From: a candidate division SR1 bacterium Aalborg_AAW-1
GTDB lineage: Bacteria > Patescibacteriota > Gracilibacteria > Absconditabacterales > Absconditicoccaceae
Direction: 5' to 3'
Assembly (NCBI GenBank): GCA_001007975.1
Contig: CP011268.1
Location: forward strand, 186,001 to 250,000
DNA: 64,000 nt
Under the pieces are notes generated by a model. It saw nothing but the letters and a program-made list of their open reading frames with translations. It did no database searches and was not told where the DNA came from. Both the position numbers and the translations under genes were made by a program. Positions 47,247-59,964 of this stretch are shown here, in pieces (position 1 is the first letter of the stretch; every line of letters begins with the position of its first letter).

Positions 47247-50200
47247 TTACTTATTAATTACATATCCAATTTCTTCCATGTGATAATCATTATTTCTATA
47301 GAGATCATAGATAGTTACTGCAATATCATTTCTTATTATAGATTGCAATTGTGTATTTACACGTTGAGCCAGGAAGTCTCTATAATAATCAGCCCAGTTA
47401 GTTCATACTTGTTCATTATATTCATTAGTTACTAATCTTACCATAATAGCAATAATTTCATCTTTTGAAATAATATCAAATGGTCTAAATGTGGTTGATA
47501 TCTTACTTTCCCCATCTCTTTGATCTCATTGGAAAATATTATATTCGTATGATTTTTTGATATAAGAAATTAATGTAGGATTTGCATCTGCTATATCATT
47601 AAAATTATTATTATAAACTTTATTAGGTTTTCTACACAAGACATTAACAGCAAATTCAACCATAAATCTCGCAGCTTCTTGTCTTGTAAGACCATCATAA
47701 GGTCTATAATCTGCTGTACCTTGCCATCTGGTCAATTCATAACTATAAAGCATTTGATGAGCTTTTTTAAATGCTTCTGTTACTAATATTCACTGATCAA
47801 TAGTATTTTTATCCATTATAGTAAAACAAGTATTTCCTATTGTTGGATTAAATATCTCTTCATCAACTCATCCAGTGGTGCTATCTCATGTAACAGTACT
47901 TCATGTTCATGGATTAGAAGGTTTTTTTTCACAAATTCCATCATATGCAGATCAACTTTTATCTCCATTTGGACAAGAATCAGTTGGTAATGTATATCAT
48001 CAACCTCATCATCATGAAGTTGATTGTGGCTTTATAACAATAGTGATAGTTGATGTACTACAATTAGTAGTATTTACAACAGAACAAATAGTATAATCAT
48101 AATAATAAGAACCTGAGAGCACAGTATTCGAAATAGAGAGTATACCTGTTACACTATCTAATACTATTCCTGAAGCCAAGACTCATGATAAAGAAATAGT
48201 TACATCACTTGGCAATACTCATGATCCATTATACGTATCATTAGTAAAGAGAGACAACTCTCATGACTGCCCTTGATTAAGAATAAGAGCGTCAGCTTGA
48301 GCACTAATAACAGGTAAAACAGGTATAGGATTTATTGTTATAGATGCTGTAGAACTAGAACAATTCGTAGGATGTATCATTTCACAGATCATATAATCAT
48401 ATACATAGGTTCCTGGTTGAACTGATGTATCAATCGAAAATATTCCTGTAATTGGATCAAAAGTAATGCCTGCTTCTAAACCTCCTGTCATAATAATCAT
48501 GACATTCGTAGTATCGACTCATATCGTACCACTCAATACATCATTATCAAAAATTGATAACGATCATGAAACAGAATGATCAAGAGTAATCGTATCAGAA
48601 TGTGCCTCGATTAAACGCATTGGCGGAAGAAGAGTCTCTGCATTATAGGTAGTTTGTACATATTTGTAATTATTCATACCAATATCATTACTCAATCACA
48701 CACTCATTTCATTACCTATATTATATCATGAAGACATTTGATTTTCATCCATATCAAGCGTCAGATTAAGCATTACAGTTTCACCAGAGAGAAGTTCTCA
48801 TGGATTAATTGTACAGTTAATATATCAATTCAATATTCCATTTTCTATATCAGGACAATTTAGGACGGATGAACCAGACCAACTTACAAGAGAAGAAAGG
48901 GCATAACTAGCATAGAAATAATCACTAAGATAAATCATTCACTGATTAGCATTCTTTCCAACATTCGAAATACTTAGAGTATAGTTTAATAATTCACCAG
49001 AATAAAGAGTTGTTTTATCTACTACTTTATCTGCATTAATAACTGCCTGATCTCAAAGATAAGTCTGTACATAGGTGTTACCGCCATATGACTGATCTCT
49101 ACTATCATTGAAGTTAGTGCCAAATTGATTATATACCCAATCGTTTGTAGATAATGGTGCTTTGATACCGATCGTCATAGACACAGTTTCTCATGGTGAG
49201 ATAACTCATGCATCGATCTGACATTGTATCGTATCAGTACCAGTCCAATCTACAAGAGCTGGACAAGTAATTCCTGTAGGTGTATTGACTGATGTGACTT
49301 CTAAATCAGTATATGCTCCATACCAAGATATAAAATTCAATAAGTATTCATTAATAGTAATCGTTCATTGGTTAGCGATTTCTCCAGAATTTGAAAATGA
49401 CAAGGTATAGAGCAGATCATCTCCAGGAGAAGCAACCAATTTATCAACAGTTTTCATAGTTCTAATACGTGCTGCAGGAGCCTTAACAAAGAAATTTGTG
49501 AAACCATTTCATCATTGGATAATATCACCATCAGAATTCATATACATATCATTATAAATCCATCTTTCACCAATATTTTCTGAAGTTTTTACAGTAATAT
49601 TCATAGAGATTGATTCTCATGGGAGTATTGCTCATGGAGCTATAGTACAGGTAATCATAGTATTTCCTGTCCAATCAGCAGTATCCGGACAAGTAATTCC
49701 TGTAGGTGTACTTACTGCTGTGATTTGTTGATAATCAGCATATCCATTTCGATGCCCATACATGAGAATATATTCATTAATATATCATGTAACATTTGTT
49801 ACTTCTCATGAATTACCTACAGTAATTGTATAGGTAGCTTCTCATCATGGAGCAATTTGTCCTGTGTTTACAGTTTTGTTGTAATAGAGACGAGCAGATG
49901 GGAGCTGAACATAGGTATATGCATACGCCCAAGAACTCATAATAGATGTCTGAGAATTTGGAGAATAGATATATGATCTATTAGAAAAATTAATATTATT
50001 TGGAAGATCATTAGCCATCTGTAATTCCATCTTCATTTCTAGTGATCATCATGCAGGAAGTGCTCATGGAGCTATGGTACATGCGACAGTGTCTTCATTC
50101 CAAGCCGATACTGAAGGACAAGTAATACCTGCAGGCAATATAAGATTTGTAACCTCATATTTACCTGAAAGTGATGAATACGATGTTCTTGGTAAATAGT

Positions 50201-53200
50201 CTGTTAATGTAATAGGAAATACATTAGTCGCTAATCCGCTATTCCATAAAGTATATGTATATGTAAGAGTATCTGCACCCGTAATAGTACTTTTATCTAC
50301 AGTTTTGGTTTGATATATCTCAGCCCTTTTAGGGATTATTGTAGTACTTGGTGCACAAGACGAGCTTGCACAAGGTACTGTAGCACCCGCATATTGTACT
50401 GTAGCAGTATTCTGAATATAAGTAGTAGCATATTCACTTGTAATAGCTGATATTGTAATCTGGGCTTGTCCTGTATATGGAGCTAATCCTGATGGTATAG
50501 TACAAGTCAATGGATTAGTTGAACTACTACAAACTACTCCTGATGAGACACTTGTAACTACTCCCGTAAGTGATGAATTCAAATAATCTGTCACTATCAT
50601 AGATCATGTAGTAGCCAGAGCACCTGTATTCATTACGCTGATTGTCCATGAGAGAGAGTCTCATCATGTAATATTTGTCTTATCAACTGTTTTTGTATAT
50701 GATACTGCAGGTATACAGTAAATATCATCAGTATAATTACCGATCAAATCTCCATCAAATAGTTTAGAACCAGTTTGAGAGATTTGTGCATAATAATCGT
50801 ATCTTGCACTATTATGATATACTCATCAGATACAAGCTGGTTGCGCAGGAACACGTGCTAAGAAATTAATTTGAACTGTTGCTCAAGGTTGAAGTTCAAA
50901 TGATCACCATACAGGTTGAGTTGCTCAAGCAGTAGGATTCTGAGTAGAAATACGTGTTGCTCCTGCTCCAAGTGAGATAGAAGTTGTACTATCATAGGTA
51001 AATCATACTGGAAGCAAGTCAGAAATAGTACTATGTTCAATTAATTCTCATGAAGAAGGGTTAACAATACTAATCTGATAAGGAATAGTATCTCATGGTG
51101 TAAGATTTTTTACCAATGATACCTTACGTACTAATGGATCTGTACCGATAATAGAAAAATTTACTTGCGCTCTATTCGTTGATGGAGATTTCTCTAATAA
51201 CTGAGCAGAAGATCAAGTAATAGTAGCAATATTGGTCCAAATACTTGATTGTCCATAAGAAGTACCATACAACGTATAGATAAGTGATCCATTTCTTGGA
51301 AGCGTAGGAATGATTGAAGAAAAGAGACGACTTCATGTATTATATGTTATTAATCCACACACTCACCCTCCTGACGAAGCACACGAACCTGAAGCATATA
51401 AAAATCCAGCTGGAAGAATATCTTCTAAGACAGAATTACTAACCGTACCTCCAGCTGCATTTCCTACTTGAAGCTGAAATGACATAGCAGAAGATGGCAT
51501 AATAGTCTCTGGTGTAACTGTTTTAGCAATAGTAAGATCAGCACACGTAAAGATATAATTAGAATACAAATATTGATTTGAATTATAAACTGGATCTGTA
51601 GTACCACTTGGTACATATGCATTAAGGTAAAAATAAGGATTTACATTAACAGATGTTGTATCTGGATTGGCACATATCGATGATCATGGTGTCGTTGGCA
51701 AAAGTGGAGTAAATGTCTCTGTAATAGTAAATGACGCTCCTGCAGGCCAATTACCTACCTGTTGAGAAAAACTATTAATTGATGTATTTCATTGCATCAC
51801 ACTATTATAAGGAGATGGACAGGCTACTCATCACGTCGAAGTACAACTAATAGTACGATCAGTAAAATAATAACTATAGCTATTACTATAAAGACCACCT
51901 TGAATAGTAGTTCATGAAGCATTGGCAGGTCAGTTATTCGTATACGTATAGGTGTAGGTAATCGGTTGTCCATAGGTCCAATTACCTGTAGATACGTTTA
52001 CTGTAGCTTGTACATCAGCAACAGGACAAGGATCTACTTGTTGATATGGTCCATTATAAAGATAACTATAAGAATCGTGATTGTAAACTGGATCTGTAAG
52101 TCCAATTGGAACTCTTGTATAAGAATAAGCAAACAAGTATAATCTACTACCATAATTTGGACCACAAGTTGTTGTGTTCTGAAAATTAGTAACTTTAAAA
52201 CTTACGGTATAATTCAACTCTCCACTCTGTGGCCACTCTCCTACAGTAGCATAAAAAGTTCAAAAATTGCTATATATTCATCTAACACCATTAGCAGATG
52301 GTTGTGTAATAGTAGGACAAGCCACTCATCACGTCGATGTACAACTAATAGAAAGGTTCTCATAAGAGAGATTTCACTGTACTTGTCATGACATGTAACG
52401 TAGATTTAATTCATTAAGCGAAATAGCCGCTCCTGATACTGATCAAGTACCATTATTTTTGTAATTAATATTAAAAGTGACTGTATCACCAATATCCCAA
52501 GAACTAGCATTTTGAGTGATCGTCGTTTGAAGATCTACATTCGGACAAGGATCTACTTGTTGATATGGTCCATATCATGAAACCAATGATTTATCTTGAT
52601 TATAGACTGGATCATTAATTCAATTGGGTACACGTCAATAAGTACTTGTATAAAAATAGAGAGCACTACCACGATTTGGTCCACATGCAGTAGTATTAGC
52701 AAATGATGTAGGTCTAATAGTCATAGTAAGAGTTAATGCACCAGAACTTGGCCATTCTCATGGCACATTAAGACTATATGGATATATATAATTTTGTAAT
52801 GTCATTGTTCAAGTAGGAGTTGGTGTTATATCTGTAGGACAAGCTACTCATCAGGTCGCTGTACAAGTAATAGTATAATCACTATAAGAAAGATTACCTT
52901 GTACATATCCACTAGCATAGTTAAAATATCGATAATCTTGAATATATGCTCCATCTATAGGTCCAGGTCATTTGTTAGTATAAGTAATAGTATAAGTCAT
53001 CAAATCTCAAAAATTCCAATTTCCTGTTCCTGCACCAGATGCAACCACAGTTGTCTCTAAATCAGCAGGACGTATGGTCATCACGGTATTAGTCTGAGCA
53101 GAGTTTGTACTAGGATCAATCTCTGTCATACCAGCAGGTACAGATACAGAAACTGTATTCGATACAGATGAATTAGGAACTATAGCATAACGTCCACTAA

Positions 53201-53570
53201 TTTTTATCGTTACAGAACCATTGTACGGGAATGTTGGGATCGTACCATTCACCTGTGTTGATGTTGTACTAAATGATGCAGGACAAGTAGCTCCATTCAG
53301 TGTAGATGTACAGGTTGCTACAATATTTGTTGATCATGCTGGAAAGGTATTAGAAAATGTTGCACCATCAGCAGCGTCAAGACCCCCATTTTGTATGACT
53401 ACTTCATATTCAAAATTCTCTTTATTCGTACCTGTGGCTGGTCCATTAGTAACTACTTTCAGATCTGCAGATCCAGCAGCATACGTAGTATCAATCATAT
53501 ACAATGGAGAAGAGTTGACAAGGACCATGAATGTCATGATCGATACCATAAATTTGTACATTTTTTGCAT
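47247..53570 (-). CDS. giant DUF11-repeat surface protein with SLH-like C-terminus, copy B (complete)
   Basis: About 2,107 residues, the largest gene here, open only with TGA as Gly. The start MQKMYKFMVSIMTFMVLVN matches copy A (MYKLFVLYIVMTVLVN), so ATG 53570 is preferred over one 16 codons upstream. After the signal peptide come many DUF11-type repeats (ETTVVASGAGTGNWNF, DILPAGFLYASGSCASSGG, SALSGKYEVTNLILPAG). Several Ig-like modules follow (GITFDPITGIFSIDTS), then a Gly-rich linker and an SLH-like end (YRPYDGLTRQEAARFMVEF ... EIGYVINK). An adhesin/S-layer-associated stalk is inferred. It is paralogous to copies at 1-4992 and 63409-64000. Confidence 0.88.
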
Positions 53571-53600
53571 TACAAAAACAGAAAAAATAAATAACAAAAA

Positions 53601-53619
53601 TATGGTAGAGAATACCATA
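53601..53619. repeat. inverted repeat before surface protein B
   Basis: TATGGTA, GAGAA, TACCATA: perfect 7-bp arms, about 30 bases upstream of the chosen ATG on the minus strand. A candidate operator or mRNA 5' hairpin. Confidence 0.35.
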
Positions 53620-54030: not shown

Positions 54031-54795
54031 TTAACTTTCTCCACTAATTTCTTTAATCTGATCTCTTAACACCACTGCAGATTCAAAATCCCAAGTCTGT
54101 ATGGCATTATCAAGCTGTTTCTTCAAATCAGTCAGAATAAGATCTTTTTCTTTTTTTGTCATACGCTTAAGCCTCTTATGTTGTCATTTCACCTGTAGGC
54201 TATCAAATGATTGTTTCAGATCTTCATCTGTTTTTACCGCTTCAAGATTTTTAACATTAGAAGAAGCAATAGTTGGTATAATATTATGTTCTTGGTTAAA
54301 ATTATGTTGAATCTGACGACGACGATGTGTCTCCCAGAGAGATTTGAGCATAGATTCGGTCATCATGTCAGCATACAAAATAACCTCACCATGAGGATTA
54401 CGAGCAGCACGCCCAATAATTTGAATAAGAGAAGTGGTACTACGAAGAAATCACTCTTTATCTGCATCTAAAATAGAAACTAATGATACTTCTGGAAGAT
54501 CAATACCCTCCCTCAAAAGATTAATACCGACTAAGATATCTATTTCACCATTTCTTAATTTTTTAATAATATCCCAGCGATCCATCGTTGCAATTTCCGA
54601 ATGAAGATAGTATGCTTTATATCAACGAGCAACCAAAAAATTAGTAATCTCTTCTGATGATTTCTTTGTGAGCGTTAGCAACAAAACTCTTCCTCAGTTT
54701 GCAATATGGGAATCAATTTTTGTAAAGAGATGTTCCAAAAAGGGAATATTCTGATGCGAATCTGGATGGATAAAGTCTTTGAGATTATTATTCAT
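54031..54795 (-). pseudogene. uvrB: C-terminal part of UvrB only (truncated uvrB or stand-alone domain protein)
   Basis: 254 residues that match the last ~250 of the ~670 of Uvr[117 protein letters not shown] and a UVR motif (LTDLKKQLDNAIQTGDFESA). The N-terminal half with Walker A, the beta-hairpin and the UvrA-binding domain is missing. The frame is clean and starts with ATG, so it may be expressed; without Walker A it cannot hydrolyse ATP alone. Upstream lies the CTTAATT repeat. Confidence 0.8.
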
Positions 54796-56025: not shown

Positions 56026-56622
56026 TTAAGCAATGAGCTCTCTAATTTCATCTTCTGACATATTTCCTTGTCTCAAAATCTGAAAATCATCTTCATCAAT
56101 AACACGTATAATAGTAGAAGGAATCTGTATATCACATATACCACCATCAATAAGCATCACTCAGTGATCAATAAAATATGGATCAATTTCATTAACATCA
56201 GTAGGTGCTACCATACCACTTCTATTCGCACTTTTAGTAGCAATAGGCCTACCAAATGCGGTAATAATATCAAGAGCAATGTCATGATCTGGTATTCTCA
56301 CTCATAGTGTCCCATTTGGTTGCTCAACCAAAGCAGATAGTTCATGTCTACTATCAAGAATCAGTGTTAATGGTCATGGCATACAATGTTCTATAATTCT
56401 TTTTTCGAGATCGAAACGAATTTCACCATATTTTTCAATCATATTCAACGAATCACAAAGTACAATTAAACCCTTGTGTTCTGGACGACTCGTCAGAGCA
56501 TACAAATTTTCCACAGCAACGTCATTACCAGCATCACATCACAAACCATAGACAGTATCAGTAGGGTAAATAACTGGCTTACCAGACGAAAGTGTTTTTA
56601 TAATAGCTTGAATATCTTGCAT
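56026..56622 (-). CDS. tsaC: threonylcarbamoyl-AMP synthase TsaC/Sua5 (YrdC)
   Basis: 198 residues. SSGKPVIYPTDTVYGLGCDA, YALTSRPEHKGLIVL, GPLTLILDS, VRIPDHDIALDIITAFGRPI and ATKSANRSGMVAPTDVNEI are the YrdC-domain signatures. It makes threonylcarbamoyl-AMP from Thr, bicarbonate and ATP for the t6A37 tRNA modification. No Sua5 extra domain is present. Position between murB (convergent) and the YgjP-like gene (divergent) makes it monocistronic. Confidence 0.92.
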
Positions 56623-56693
56623 AGACAGAGAGATATAAATAAAATAAAGCATATATAGTAGATATTTATAACAATACAAGAGAAAAATCAAAA

Positions 56694-57233
56694 ATGAATA
56701 TATCTTACCATCTTCATCGTTCTCATCGCAGAAGCATTAGTATTCGTATTTTACCAAATTGAGAAATAAAAGTTTCTGCACCATATGGGATATCTGAGCA
56801 TATCATAGAACAATTCGTACAATCTAAACAGAATCGAATAAAAAAACAACTTGATAGATTTTCTTCTTGAGATTTTCCTTCATACAAAACAGTGACGAAA
56901 GAGCTTAAAGAAAAAGCATTGATACAAATCCTACCAAGAGTAGAATATTATGCAAAGTGCATGAATGTAGAAAAAAAATATAAGCATATTTGAATAACAG
57001 CTGCAAAGACAAAACGATGATCATGTAGCAATACATGAAAACTATTATTTCATCGAAGATTGTCAGAATTACCTTTGTTTGTATTAGATTATGTTATAGT
57101 CCATGAACTCGCTCATTTAGTACATTTTAACCATAGTACATCGTTTTGGAGTCTTGTAGAAGAATATTATCCAGATTATAAACATACAAAAAAATGGTTA
57201 AAAGAAAATGGACACAGTCGATCCATTACATAA
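56694..57233 (+). CDS. YgjP-like (DUF45) metallopeptidase
   Basis: 179 residues. The zinc motif is VIVHELAHLVHFNHSTSFW: HExxH with a third ligand His a few residues on, then EYYPDYKHTKKWLKENG, as in YgjP/WLM peptidases. The N-terminus (RRSISIRILPNGEIKVSAP) and KRGSCSNTGKLLFHRRLSEL also match. Substrate unknown. Six TGA codons read as Gly or in loops. It is divergent from tsaC; its 3' end is 7 bases from the convergent ValRS-like stop. Confidence 0.88.
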
Positions 57234-57240
57234 CAATATA

Positions 57241-59964
57241 CTAAAAATATTTTAATTTGGAGATTTGATATTCAATTTCACTAATTTCTTTTTCTAAACC
57301 ATAAATTTGTGATTGAAATTGTTCAATTTTTTCTCTCTGACCACTCGTACGCATACGAATCAACGTATTTTTAATAGTTTGGAGAAGTTGTTCTTTATAA
57401 GAGAGTTGTTTTTTTAATGTTCAGAGCGAATCCTGCAATTCAACTATAGGTTTTTCATTCACAATTACAGGTAATCATTTTATTCACCGTTGCATAGCAA
57501 ATACTTTATGATATGATACTCAATCTGGCCGTTCCTGATGTTCATCAAGAAGATCTATGATATATTCTTTACCAATAAAATCAGTAAAATCTGGCAGCAC
57601 TTGTTGAGCATAATCTAGGAAGTCTTTGTTTGCTTTCAACATAAATCACTGTATTGGCTGAGATGACTTTGTTTCCTTATACCATTGATTAATAAATTGC
57701 ATAAGAAAATTACATTTTATATTTTTATTAACTAAAAATGTAGGATCTTTTTCAAAAAACGTTATAGACCTCTTCATTCAAAGATTATCAAACAATCAAA
57801 CAACAAGATTAGGAGCTAAAGGATAAAGAAGATGATTAGAAAAATTAATCACATATGACGCTACCTTATGAGATACTGAAGAAGGAACCATCTTGATAAT
57901 ATACAAAAGAATATCAGCAATTTTATTCCATAATGTAGAAATAGTAATAGAAACAATATGATCGGTATGATGTTTTTGAAGAGAAAACACAACATCATCA
58001 TACAACTCATGTAATGTTGAGATAAGATAAGTATCATAATCACTCATATGATGTGACAACTCTAACAATTCTTTTGCTTGTTCTTCGATAGTATAATTTC
58101 AAGATTGTGGAATAATTCTAACTAAATTCCATCGTTTTTGAAGAAAGCGATCAAACTCCTCTGCAGTATAATAATATTGAATCTCATCATGATCTTGATG
58201 ATGACAAGCTTGTAACAATAATAATCTAGAGACATCAGACATTAATGTTTGCATAGTATTCCATTGTGATCAAAATACTTTTTTGTCTTCTAAAGCATAA
58301 ATATGTAATTGAAGAGATTTTCTATAATAATAATAGTGTACATAAAGAAAAAACTTAAAAAAAGTTGTTTTATCTGACACCATTACGATATCAATCAGAG
58401 ATGTAGGTGTAAGATAGATGATTAAAGCTAAAGCGACATAATCATTATCATAATGATAGTTATCATGATGTTGAACAACATAACCCTGCTTTGTATGCAA
58501 AAAGTATCATCATAAATCAATATACTCTAATAAAGTATCTATATCGTGGTCAGACGGTATATGTTGTGTTATTTTTTCTAATAATGTATATACTTCTTCA
58601 TGGTTATGATAAGTAGTATGTTGTATACGTGCTTCAAAAAATATCTTCCACAAATATATTCCATCATATTGGAGAGAAAAAATATCTATAATATCATCTC
58701 ACTTAAGAGGCAGATGTAACAGTCACCATTGGTAAAAATCTTTTACAATATCTTGTATTAAATTAACTTCCTCAGAGTGAATAGACTGATTATCAAAATA
58801 TCATGAGAAAGATCAAAGTAGTGGTTGATAAGTGTCCTGATTTGTTATACAAAAATTTTCTTCTTTTCAAACATCATTCTCTAATAATGTACTATTTCAA
58901 ATATATTGCCCACTATGTTCAATAAAATTTCTATCATCAAATGATTGATATCAAAGTCCAATATAAATATTTTTTTTCAAAAGTGGATAAAGCAGTTGAT
59001 TTGTATACTTATCCCTATATTCAACACGTTCAGATAAAATAGTAGATTCTAAATTCGAAATATCATCTAAAAATTTTATAACATTTTCACTAAAATCCTG
59101 TAAAGATTTATGAGAAAAATCTTTTGCATATGATGTAAACTTTCACCATTCATCAAATGCATATATGTCTATTGGCAGTCACAACTCTAATGCAATTCAA
59201 AAATCTTCACGATTATGCGCTGGAACAAGTACACGTGTTCATAATCACTCTACACTTACACCTTCATATGGAATTACAGGGACAGACCTATTACTAATAG
59301 GAAGTATAATATCTCTACCACGAGCTTTTTTATATCTTTTATCATGAGGGTTAACTAATATAGCCACACATCCAAAAAGATCATAGGCATGATGAATCAA
59401 TCAAGACAGTGTCTCTTTATTAGAATTAAGAAAAAATCTTACGATATATTCTTGTGTATTCACTATTTTTTTTTCTATACGATGATCTGGCACTACTCTT
59501 CAAGACTCAATATCGTAATATACCACATCTGAACGTAATCATACGCGATGATCATGTACTAATTTTTTATCTACATGATGCAATGCGTCAATAACAGTAG
59601 GATGATAAAGATGATATAAACTATATCATATACCAAGAAAGTTTAATTGATCTTTGATTATACCATAATCAGTAGTATATTGCTTGATAAAAGTAGAAAT
59701 ATTGTATTGTGTATGTAATGAATGAGAGCGTGGTCCTATATATATAGGTATGAGAGAAGGTTCAAGTTTAGTTCTTTGATAAAAATCACTATATACAAGA
59801 TATTGTGCTGTAGTTTCGTCTAAGAAACCTTGTAAAGGAGTAGCAATAACTGATCTTCACTGATATATTCATGTTTGATTATAATAATGGCTATCATCCT
59901 CAAGACGTTTCTGTATGAGTGATGATCCATGTATTCTCTTAGAAAACGACGGTGTGTGAGTCAT
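57241..59964 (-). CDS. valyl-tRNA synthetase-like protein with degenerate catalytic motifs
   Basis: 907 residues, the length of ValRS. Domain order follows class Ia synthetases. At the HIGH site (about residues 78-90) the sequence is GPRSHSLHTQYNIS, without HIGH. The CP1 editing region is recognisable (AILVNPHDKRYKKARGRDII, NRSVPVIPYEGVSVEGLGTR, VLVPAHNREDFGIALELGLP). The KMSKS site near residue 565 is LEDKKVFGSQWNTMQ. An anticodon-binding helical bundle (STLHELYDDVVFSLQKH, SNHLLYPLAPNLV) and the ValRS C-terminal coiled coil (LKKQLSYKEQLLQTIKN) complete it. Loss of both ATP-binding motifs implies no aminoacylation; editing or a regulatory role is inferred. It ends in TAG. Confidence 0.6.

Follow-up and report, generated by a model that had tools for sequence, protein, structure and literature searches.

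Genome analysis of a member of the Absconditabacteria (SR1) revealed a gene for a full-length protein which descends from bacterial valyl-tRNA synthetase (ValRS) but is devoid of the motifs required of such an enzyme. We consider this protein to be a catalytically dead ValRS derivative that is kept by selection (probability about 0.93), and refer to it as pseudo-ValRS. The analyzed stretch of DNA (64,000 nt, the window) corresponds to positions 186001-250000 of the single 1.04-Mb contig of a genome that is 98% complete. Features are listed in Table 1.

The gene, its reading frame, and its canonical counterpart

The 907 codons extend from an ATG at 59964 to a stop codon at 57241. They include 29 TGA codons, read as Gly, and the frame is open solely with code 25; with the standard code, the longest frame at this locus has at most 90 aa. 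Residues 611, 812, and 826 are given as Trp because CGA and CGG are read as Trp in Absconditabacteria (PMC8629427). In many relatives, CGA or CGG is found at conserved Trp positions, which fits this known reassignment (PMC8629427). A link between pseudo-ValRS and the recoding was considered and ruled out, as CGA occurs at conserved Trp positions in the canonical and the pseudo group alike.

The check for a second, canonical valS that had been proposed in an earlier note on this DNA gave one full copy at 147735-150143 (contig coordinates). This copy belongs to the archaeal-like PRK13208 type (913 bits, cut-off 738) and contains HIGH, KISKS, and TTRPEL.

Table 1. Features of the pseudo-ValRS gene and of the genes upstream of it (positions in the window)
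Feature	Position	Strand	Evidence and remarks
MltG/YceG-like protein, 388 aa	62219..63385	(-)	heads the gene group; Pfam YceG 1e-51
162-aa protein, one N-terminal hydrophobic segment	61703..62191	(-)	site of a conserved ~170-aa protein in most relatives
FnIII-domain protein, 559 aa, N-terminal signal-like and C-terminal membrane segment	59991..61670	(-)	Pfam fn3 1.7e-8
Pseudo-ValRS gene (P0001), 907 aa	57241..59964	(-)	code 25, family match, structure model
HIGH-equivalent position, reads DETT, res. 49-52	59809..59820	(-)	alignment; model strand 38-41, helix 50-66
HTQY, res. 84-87	59704..59715	(-)	GTDHAG..ATQ-equivalent segment, preceded by model strand 73-77; register inferred
CP1 (editing-type) domain, res. 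150-335	58960..59517	(-)	best conserved part, pLDDT ~90
TTRPET-equivalent of editing site, reads IHHAYD, res. 190-195	59380..59397	(-)	alignment; R216 and T219 lost
D279-equivalent Asp, res. 254	59203..59205	(-)	alignment; present
KMSKS-equivalent region, KKVFGS, res. 561-566	58267..58284	(-)	one alignment; register uncertain
Stem-contact fold and anticodon-binding bundle, res. 566-735	57760..58269	(-)	weak Pfam Anticodon_1 match 644-753; model
C-terminal coiled coil, res. 839-907 (helices 840-871 and 877-906)	57244..57450	(-)	model

Descent from ValRS

The best family for the window protein is NCBIfam valS (91.5 bits, E 3.5e-26), far below the curated cut-off of 612.1 bits, and the second-best is ileS with an E-value of only 2.6e-5, so that ValRS is indeed preferred over other families. 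Structure prediction and superposition gave a concordant result. In the AlphaFold model, the CP1 domain has a pLDDT of ~90 and the helical bundle of ~80-88, while the second half of the Rossmann domain is mostly below 50. The best structural matches are class I synthetases throughout. Thermus thermophilus ValRS (1gax) is among them (672 residues, Z 23.0), level with chains from MetRS and LeuRS; the modelled fold is that of class I synthetases from the Val/Ile/Leu/Met group. A less diverged relative (from genome G042) is modelled as a whole ValRS (pLDDT 85, pTM 0.77), with 1gax as its best match (Z 29.6, 725 residues); the poorer match of the window protein is probably due to its divergence and to its alignment of 26 sequences. 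Of the ValRS architecture that the earlier note described as retained, the length, the CP1 fold, the anticodon-binding bundle, and the coiled coil are present; the editing active site is lost (see below). The net charge of the coiled coil is maintained.

Loss of the aminoacylation site

The whole protein was scanned for H[LIMV]GH and K[MFLI]SKS, and neither pattern is present, a result which is independent of any alignment. Together with the valS match, this bears out the original description of a full-length ValRS-like protein without HIGH and KMSKS. The same applies to its relatives: among 33 degenerate copies, KMSKS is absent from all and HxGH is lost in 30. Individual columns were assigned from an alignment of these 33 sequences with 16 canonical and reference ValRSs. 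The earlier placement of HTQY at the HIGH position proved to be wrong, as the HIGH columns read DETT, which leaves the overall conclusion unaffected. KKVFGS is one possible placement for KMSKS; an alternative alignment has QLHIY (residues 552-556) at this position.

Distribution and partner enzymes

The family of the source organism is represented by 49 genomes. A match to pseudo-ValRS of the window was obtained in 48 of them; the remaining one is 75% complete. Only a canonical native ValRS is encoded in 14 of them, while 33 carry a degenerate full-length copy of the native type; a further, incomplete genome (G064) has just a pseudo-ValRS fragment. Wherever the assembly permits a check, the degenerate copy is accompanied by another, functional-looking ValRS. 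For 24 of the 33 carriers, this partner scores above the archaeal-type cut-off, and incomplete archaeal-type copies were found in G044 and G016. The partner is another, unrelated bacterial-type ValRS in G013, G047, and G045, and a partial gene in G023 is probably of the same type. Canonical native-type ValRS and degenerate copy occur together in G061 and G062. No partner was seen in G001 (73% complete).

The gene persists with a bacterial-type (G013, G047, G045) or a native-type partner (G061, G062), and for this reason we rejected the idea that pseudo-ValRS is a general accessory subunit of the archaeal-type ValRS. The same non-archaeal partners speak against a supplier of the coiled coil which the archaeal-type ValRS is missing. 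Having outlived the change to archaeal, to unrelated bacterial, and to re-acquired native partners, pseudo-ValRS has a job that is separate from any one of them.

The genus of G061 and G062 (g19; loci L121/L122 and L123/L124) seems to have regained its native-type ValRS from within the family. This enzyme resembles the one of genus g10 most closely; the sister of g19, G018, keeps the archaeal type.

Pseudo-ValRS is retained across 14 genera. When 16 genomes from other families were searched with the window protein, no second ValRS-like match was obtained. Pseudo-ValRS is a trait of one clade within the Absconditabacteria (SR1) rather than one scattered over the Gracilibacteria. One genome from another family (G025; L096, G025:C7:13477-15750) has a canonical bacterial and an archaeal-type ValRS and is a possible replacement intermediate. 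Presence in viral contigs was considered and rejected: IMG/VR gave two matches, and the longer one has intact HIGH and KMSKS and is therefore an ordinary ValRS.

Gene neighborhood and origin

In the window, the gene for an FnIII-domain membrane protein lies upstream of pseudo-ValRS, with a gap of 26 bp to the start codon. This arrangement is found for 32 of the 33 degenerate copies (directly downstream, same strand, median gap 57 bp); in the exception, G011, the two genes are on different contigs. The FnIII gene is usually preceded by the gene for the ~170-aa protein, and other neighbors are much less shared. Nearly all family genomes have the FnIII gene. The adjacency is specific to the degenerate copies, because canonical valS is located elsewhere apart from G007, where it is found 2.65 kb downstream of the FnIII gene, which may preserve an earlier arrangement.

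When the 49 native-type proteins were placed in a tree with outgroups, all degenerate copies fell into a single clade (SH-aLRT 100) that branches from among the canonical sequences; this was a quick tree search, and long branches could exaggerate the single-clade grouping. Only one copy is more diverged than the window protein, the branch of which has 2.3 changes per site. The carriers are also one clade in an RpoB tree, except that the canonical G007 joins G000, G010, and G011 with weak support (70), and a tree constrained to a single carrier clade was not rejected (p-AU 0.38). The common position behind the FnIII gene supports a single origin. Alternatively, a common ancestor may have had both enzymes, with degradation occurring twice in parallel.

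The conserved neighborhood raises the issue of whether pseudo-ValRS no longer acts in translation but works for the envelope gene group (MltG-like, 162-aa, and FnIII protein), e.g. as a cytosolic partner or regulator. We consider this unlikely, though the adjacency and the far less shared other neighbors speak for it. The FnIII gene occurs with or without the pseudo gene and therefore needs no pseudo-ValRS. The tails of the FnIII proteins past the last membrane segment have only a few residues and show no particular conservation in the pseudo clade. In addition, the adjacency may simply be inherited, as the position of valS in G007 suggests. A dead ValRS which, as a tRNA-sensing partner of this gene group, would couple tRNA charging to surface or attachment proteins is a long shot.

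Other genes of the window include those for a 2123-aa surface-type protein with DUF11 repeats (47247-53618, minus strand), a TsaC-type threonylcarbamoyladenylate synthase (56026-56691, minus strand), and, beside the latter, a small protein without an NCBIfam match in which HELAH, a metalloprotease-like motif, occurs (56694-57233, plus strand). UvrB is encoded by two genes, one for the C-terminal half in the window (54031-54795, minus strand; model positions 429-657) and one for the N-terminal half ~241 kb away (L323, G000:C1:481102-482619). A match above the UvrB cut-off is missing from the entire family, and almost all of its genomes have these two pieces at separate sites, so that a split UvrB appears to be general in the Absconditabacteria examined.

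Loss of the CP1 editing site

Editing residues are numbered according to T. thermophilus ValRS and were mapped by alignment. R216, T219, K270, T272, D276, and D279 function in ValRS editing. In the window protein, all are changed (K270, T272, and D276 to V, V, and N) except D279. It is because of these five changes that we judge the site to be dead, D279 still being present. Of the 33 degenerate copies, 32 lack R216 and 31 lack D279, and none retains both. The classical editing role considered in the earlier note is thus not supported.

A stand-alone (trans) editing deacylase with a remodelled CP1 site is a related possibility. CP1 is the best conserved part of the protein, and many copies share K270R and retain H275 and D276. 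The combined loss of R216 and D279 argues against it: by our own mapping, it is equivalent to the E. coli IleRS double mutant T243R/D342A, which is inactive in post-transfer editing (PMC9023258). The CP1 pocket differs among the copies, ValRS editing proceeds mainly in cis (PMC9023258), and in most genomes, that of the source organism included, the partner ValRS has its own TTRPE(L/T). We thus regard trans-editing as improbable.

Selection and location of constraint

For pairs of congeners among the relatives (the window gene itself has no congener) that allowed an estimate of dS, dN/dS is about 0.04-0.26. In each of the five pseudo genera tested, no part of the protein has a pN/pS below that of CP1 (0.10 to 0.25). 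Residues that are invariant in canonical ValRS are kept very unevenly: 2/50 and 0/64 in the two catalytic halves, 22/57 in CP1, and 11/38 in the stem-contact/anticodon part, which amounts to 2/114 for the catalytic domains versus 33/95 for CP1 and bundle (Fisher p 3e-11). For the window protein alone, identity at these positions is 18% and 6% in the catalytic halves and 42% each in CP1 and the stem-contact/anticodon part. Many of the retained CP1 residues look structural. CP1 and the stem-contact/anticodon module contact tRNA in an ordinary ValRS; the pattern therefore indicates that the tRNA-contact modules were kept while the chemistry is gone.

A single long open frame is present in 31/33 copies. 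The others are an interrupted copy (G018) and one in which two frames, of 719 and 309 aa, overlap (G041, L102); the latter may reflect a sequencing error, a frameshift, or decay. Taken with the low dN/dS and the grouping in one clade, the long frames point to a retained protein. A decaying pseudogene left after ValRS replacement might explain the missing catalytic motifs, the fast evolution, the disrupted G041 copy, and the shorter copies in G021 and G056. We consider this very improbable because the dN/dS values contradict decay, and because all carrier-clade genomes examined retain the gene (the incomplete G064 as a fragment). The earlier suggestion of a class I pseudo-synthetase beside a canonical valS is thus supported, in a group where selection keeps it. 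That the protein is a true, very divergent ValRS still charging tRNA, as the overall ValRS fold of the G042 relative might suggest, is hardly credible given the missing HIGH and KMSKS and the complete canonical valS elsewhere.

Proposed role

An ancestor of a large Absconditabacteria clade would have gained a ValRS of archaeal type, and tRNA charging would have passed to it from the native enzyme. Behind the FnIII gene, the displaced protein would then have lost its ATP/amino-acid and editing sites while its overall fold was kept. It may hold tRNA-Val or a related tRNA via CP1, anticodon bundle, and coiled coil, and the bound tRNA would perhaps be sequestered, delivered, or sensed. Judging from the retained domains, we give slightly less than an even chance to the binding of (aminoacyl-)tRNA, without catalysis, being the main task. 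Such binding is plausible given the location of the constraint. The conserved position next to envelope genes is a hint of a different role, and the window protein is highly diverged, with the second half of its Rossmann domain poorly modelled. No evidence was found for a toxin or immunity factor, which had also been suggested.

Pseudo-ValRS was kept over 14 genera of a lineage with reduced genomes and outlasted further switches of the working ValRS. In this clade, the old ValRS stayed under selection for something besides its two known reactions after a foreign enzyme had taken over. Within the family, the steps from an active enzyme to a retained non-enzyme form a natural series, and the losses along it show which parts are important.

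Comparison with known systems

A literature search on valyl-tRNA synthetase in Absconditabacteria and Gracilibacteria returned nothing relevant, no published ValRS-derived pseudo-synthetase was found in the literature searched, and ValRS is absent from a 2022 review of duplicated synthetases. With bacterial ValRS itself (class Ia, TIGR00422; 1gax), pseudo-ValRS shares descent, length, domain order, CP1 fold, bundle, and coiled coil; it differs by the lack of HIGH, KMSKS, and editing residues, by its score (91 vs. 612 bits), and by the presence of a second ValRS. SLIMP, a seryl-tRNA synthetase-like protein from insect mitochondria, is a catalytically dead class II paralogue. Like pseudo-ValRS, it is a dead synthetase paralogue kept across a clade, but it is of class II and belongs to a eukaryotic organelle. 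CP1 domains and trans-editing factors (YbaK, ProXp; PMC7373986) are comparable in the CP1 fold, shared with the class Ia editing domains only; pseudo-ValRS is full-length and has lost the editing residues. LeuRS-I of Sulfolobaceae binds its tRNA, cannot aminoacylate, has a disrupted CP1 editing domain, and is important for growth, and it still makes leucyl-adenylate (PMC9437257). It is a duplicate class Ia synthetase, and pseudo-ValRS likewise coexists with an active-looking enzyme of the same specificity. LeuRS-I, however, is an archaeal LeuRS, whereas pseudo-ValRS has lost KMSKS and usually HIGH and has CP1 as its best conserved part. Because of the parallels to LeuRS-I and SLIMP, this kind of protein is already known; a ValRS-derived dead synthetase that is clade-wide in bacteria appears to be new.
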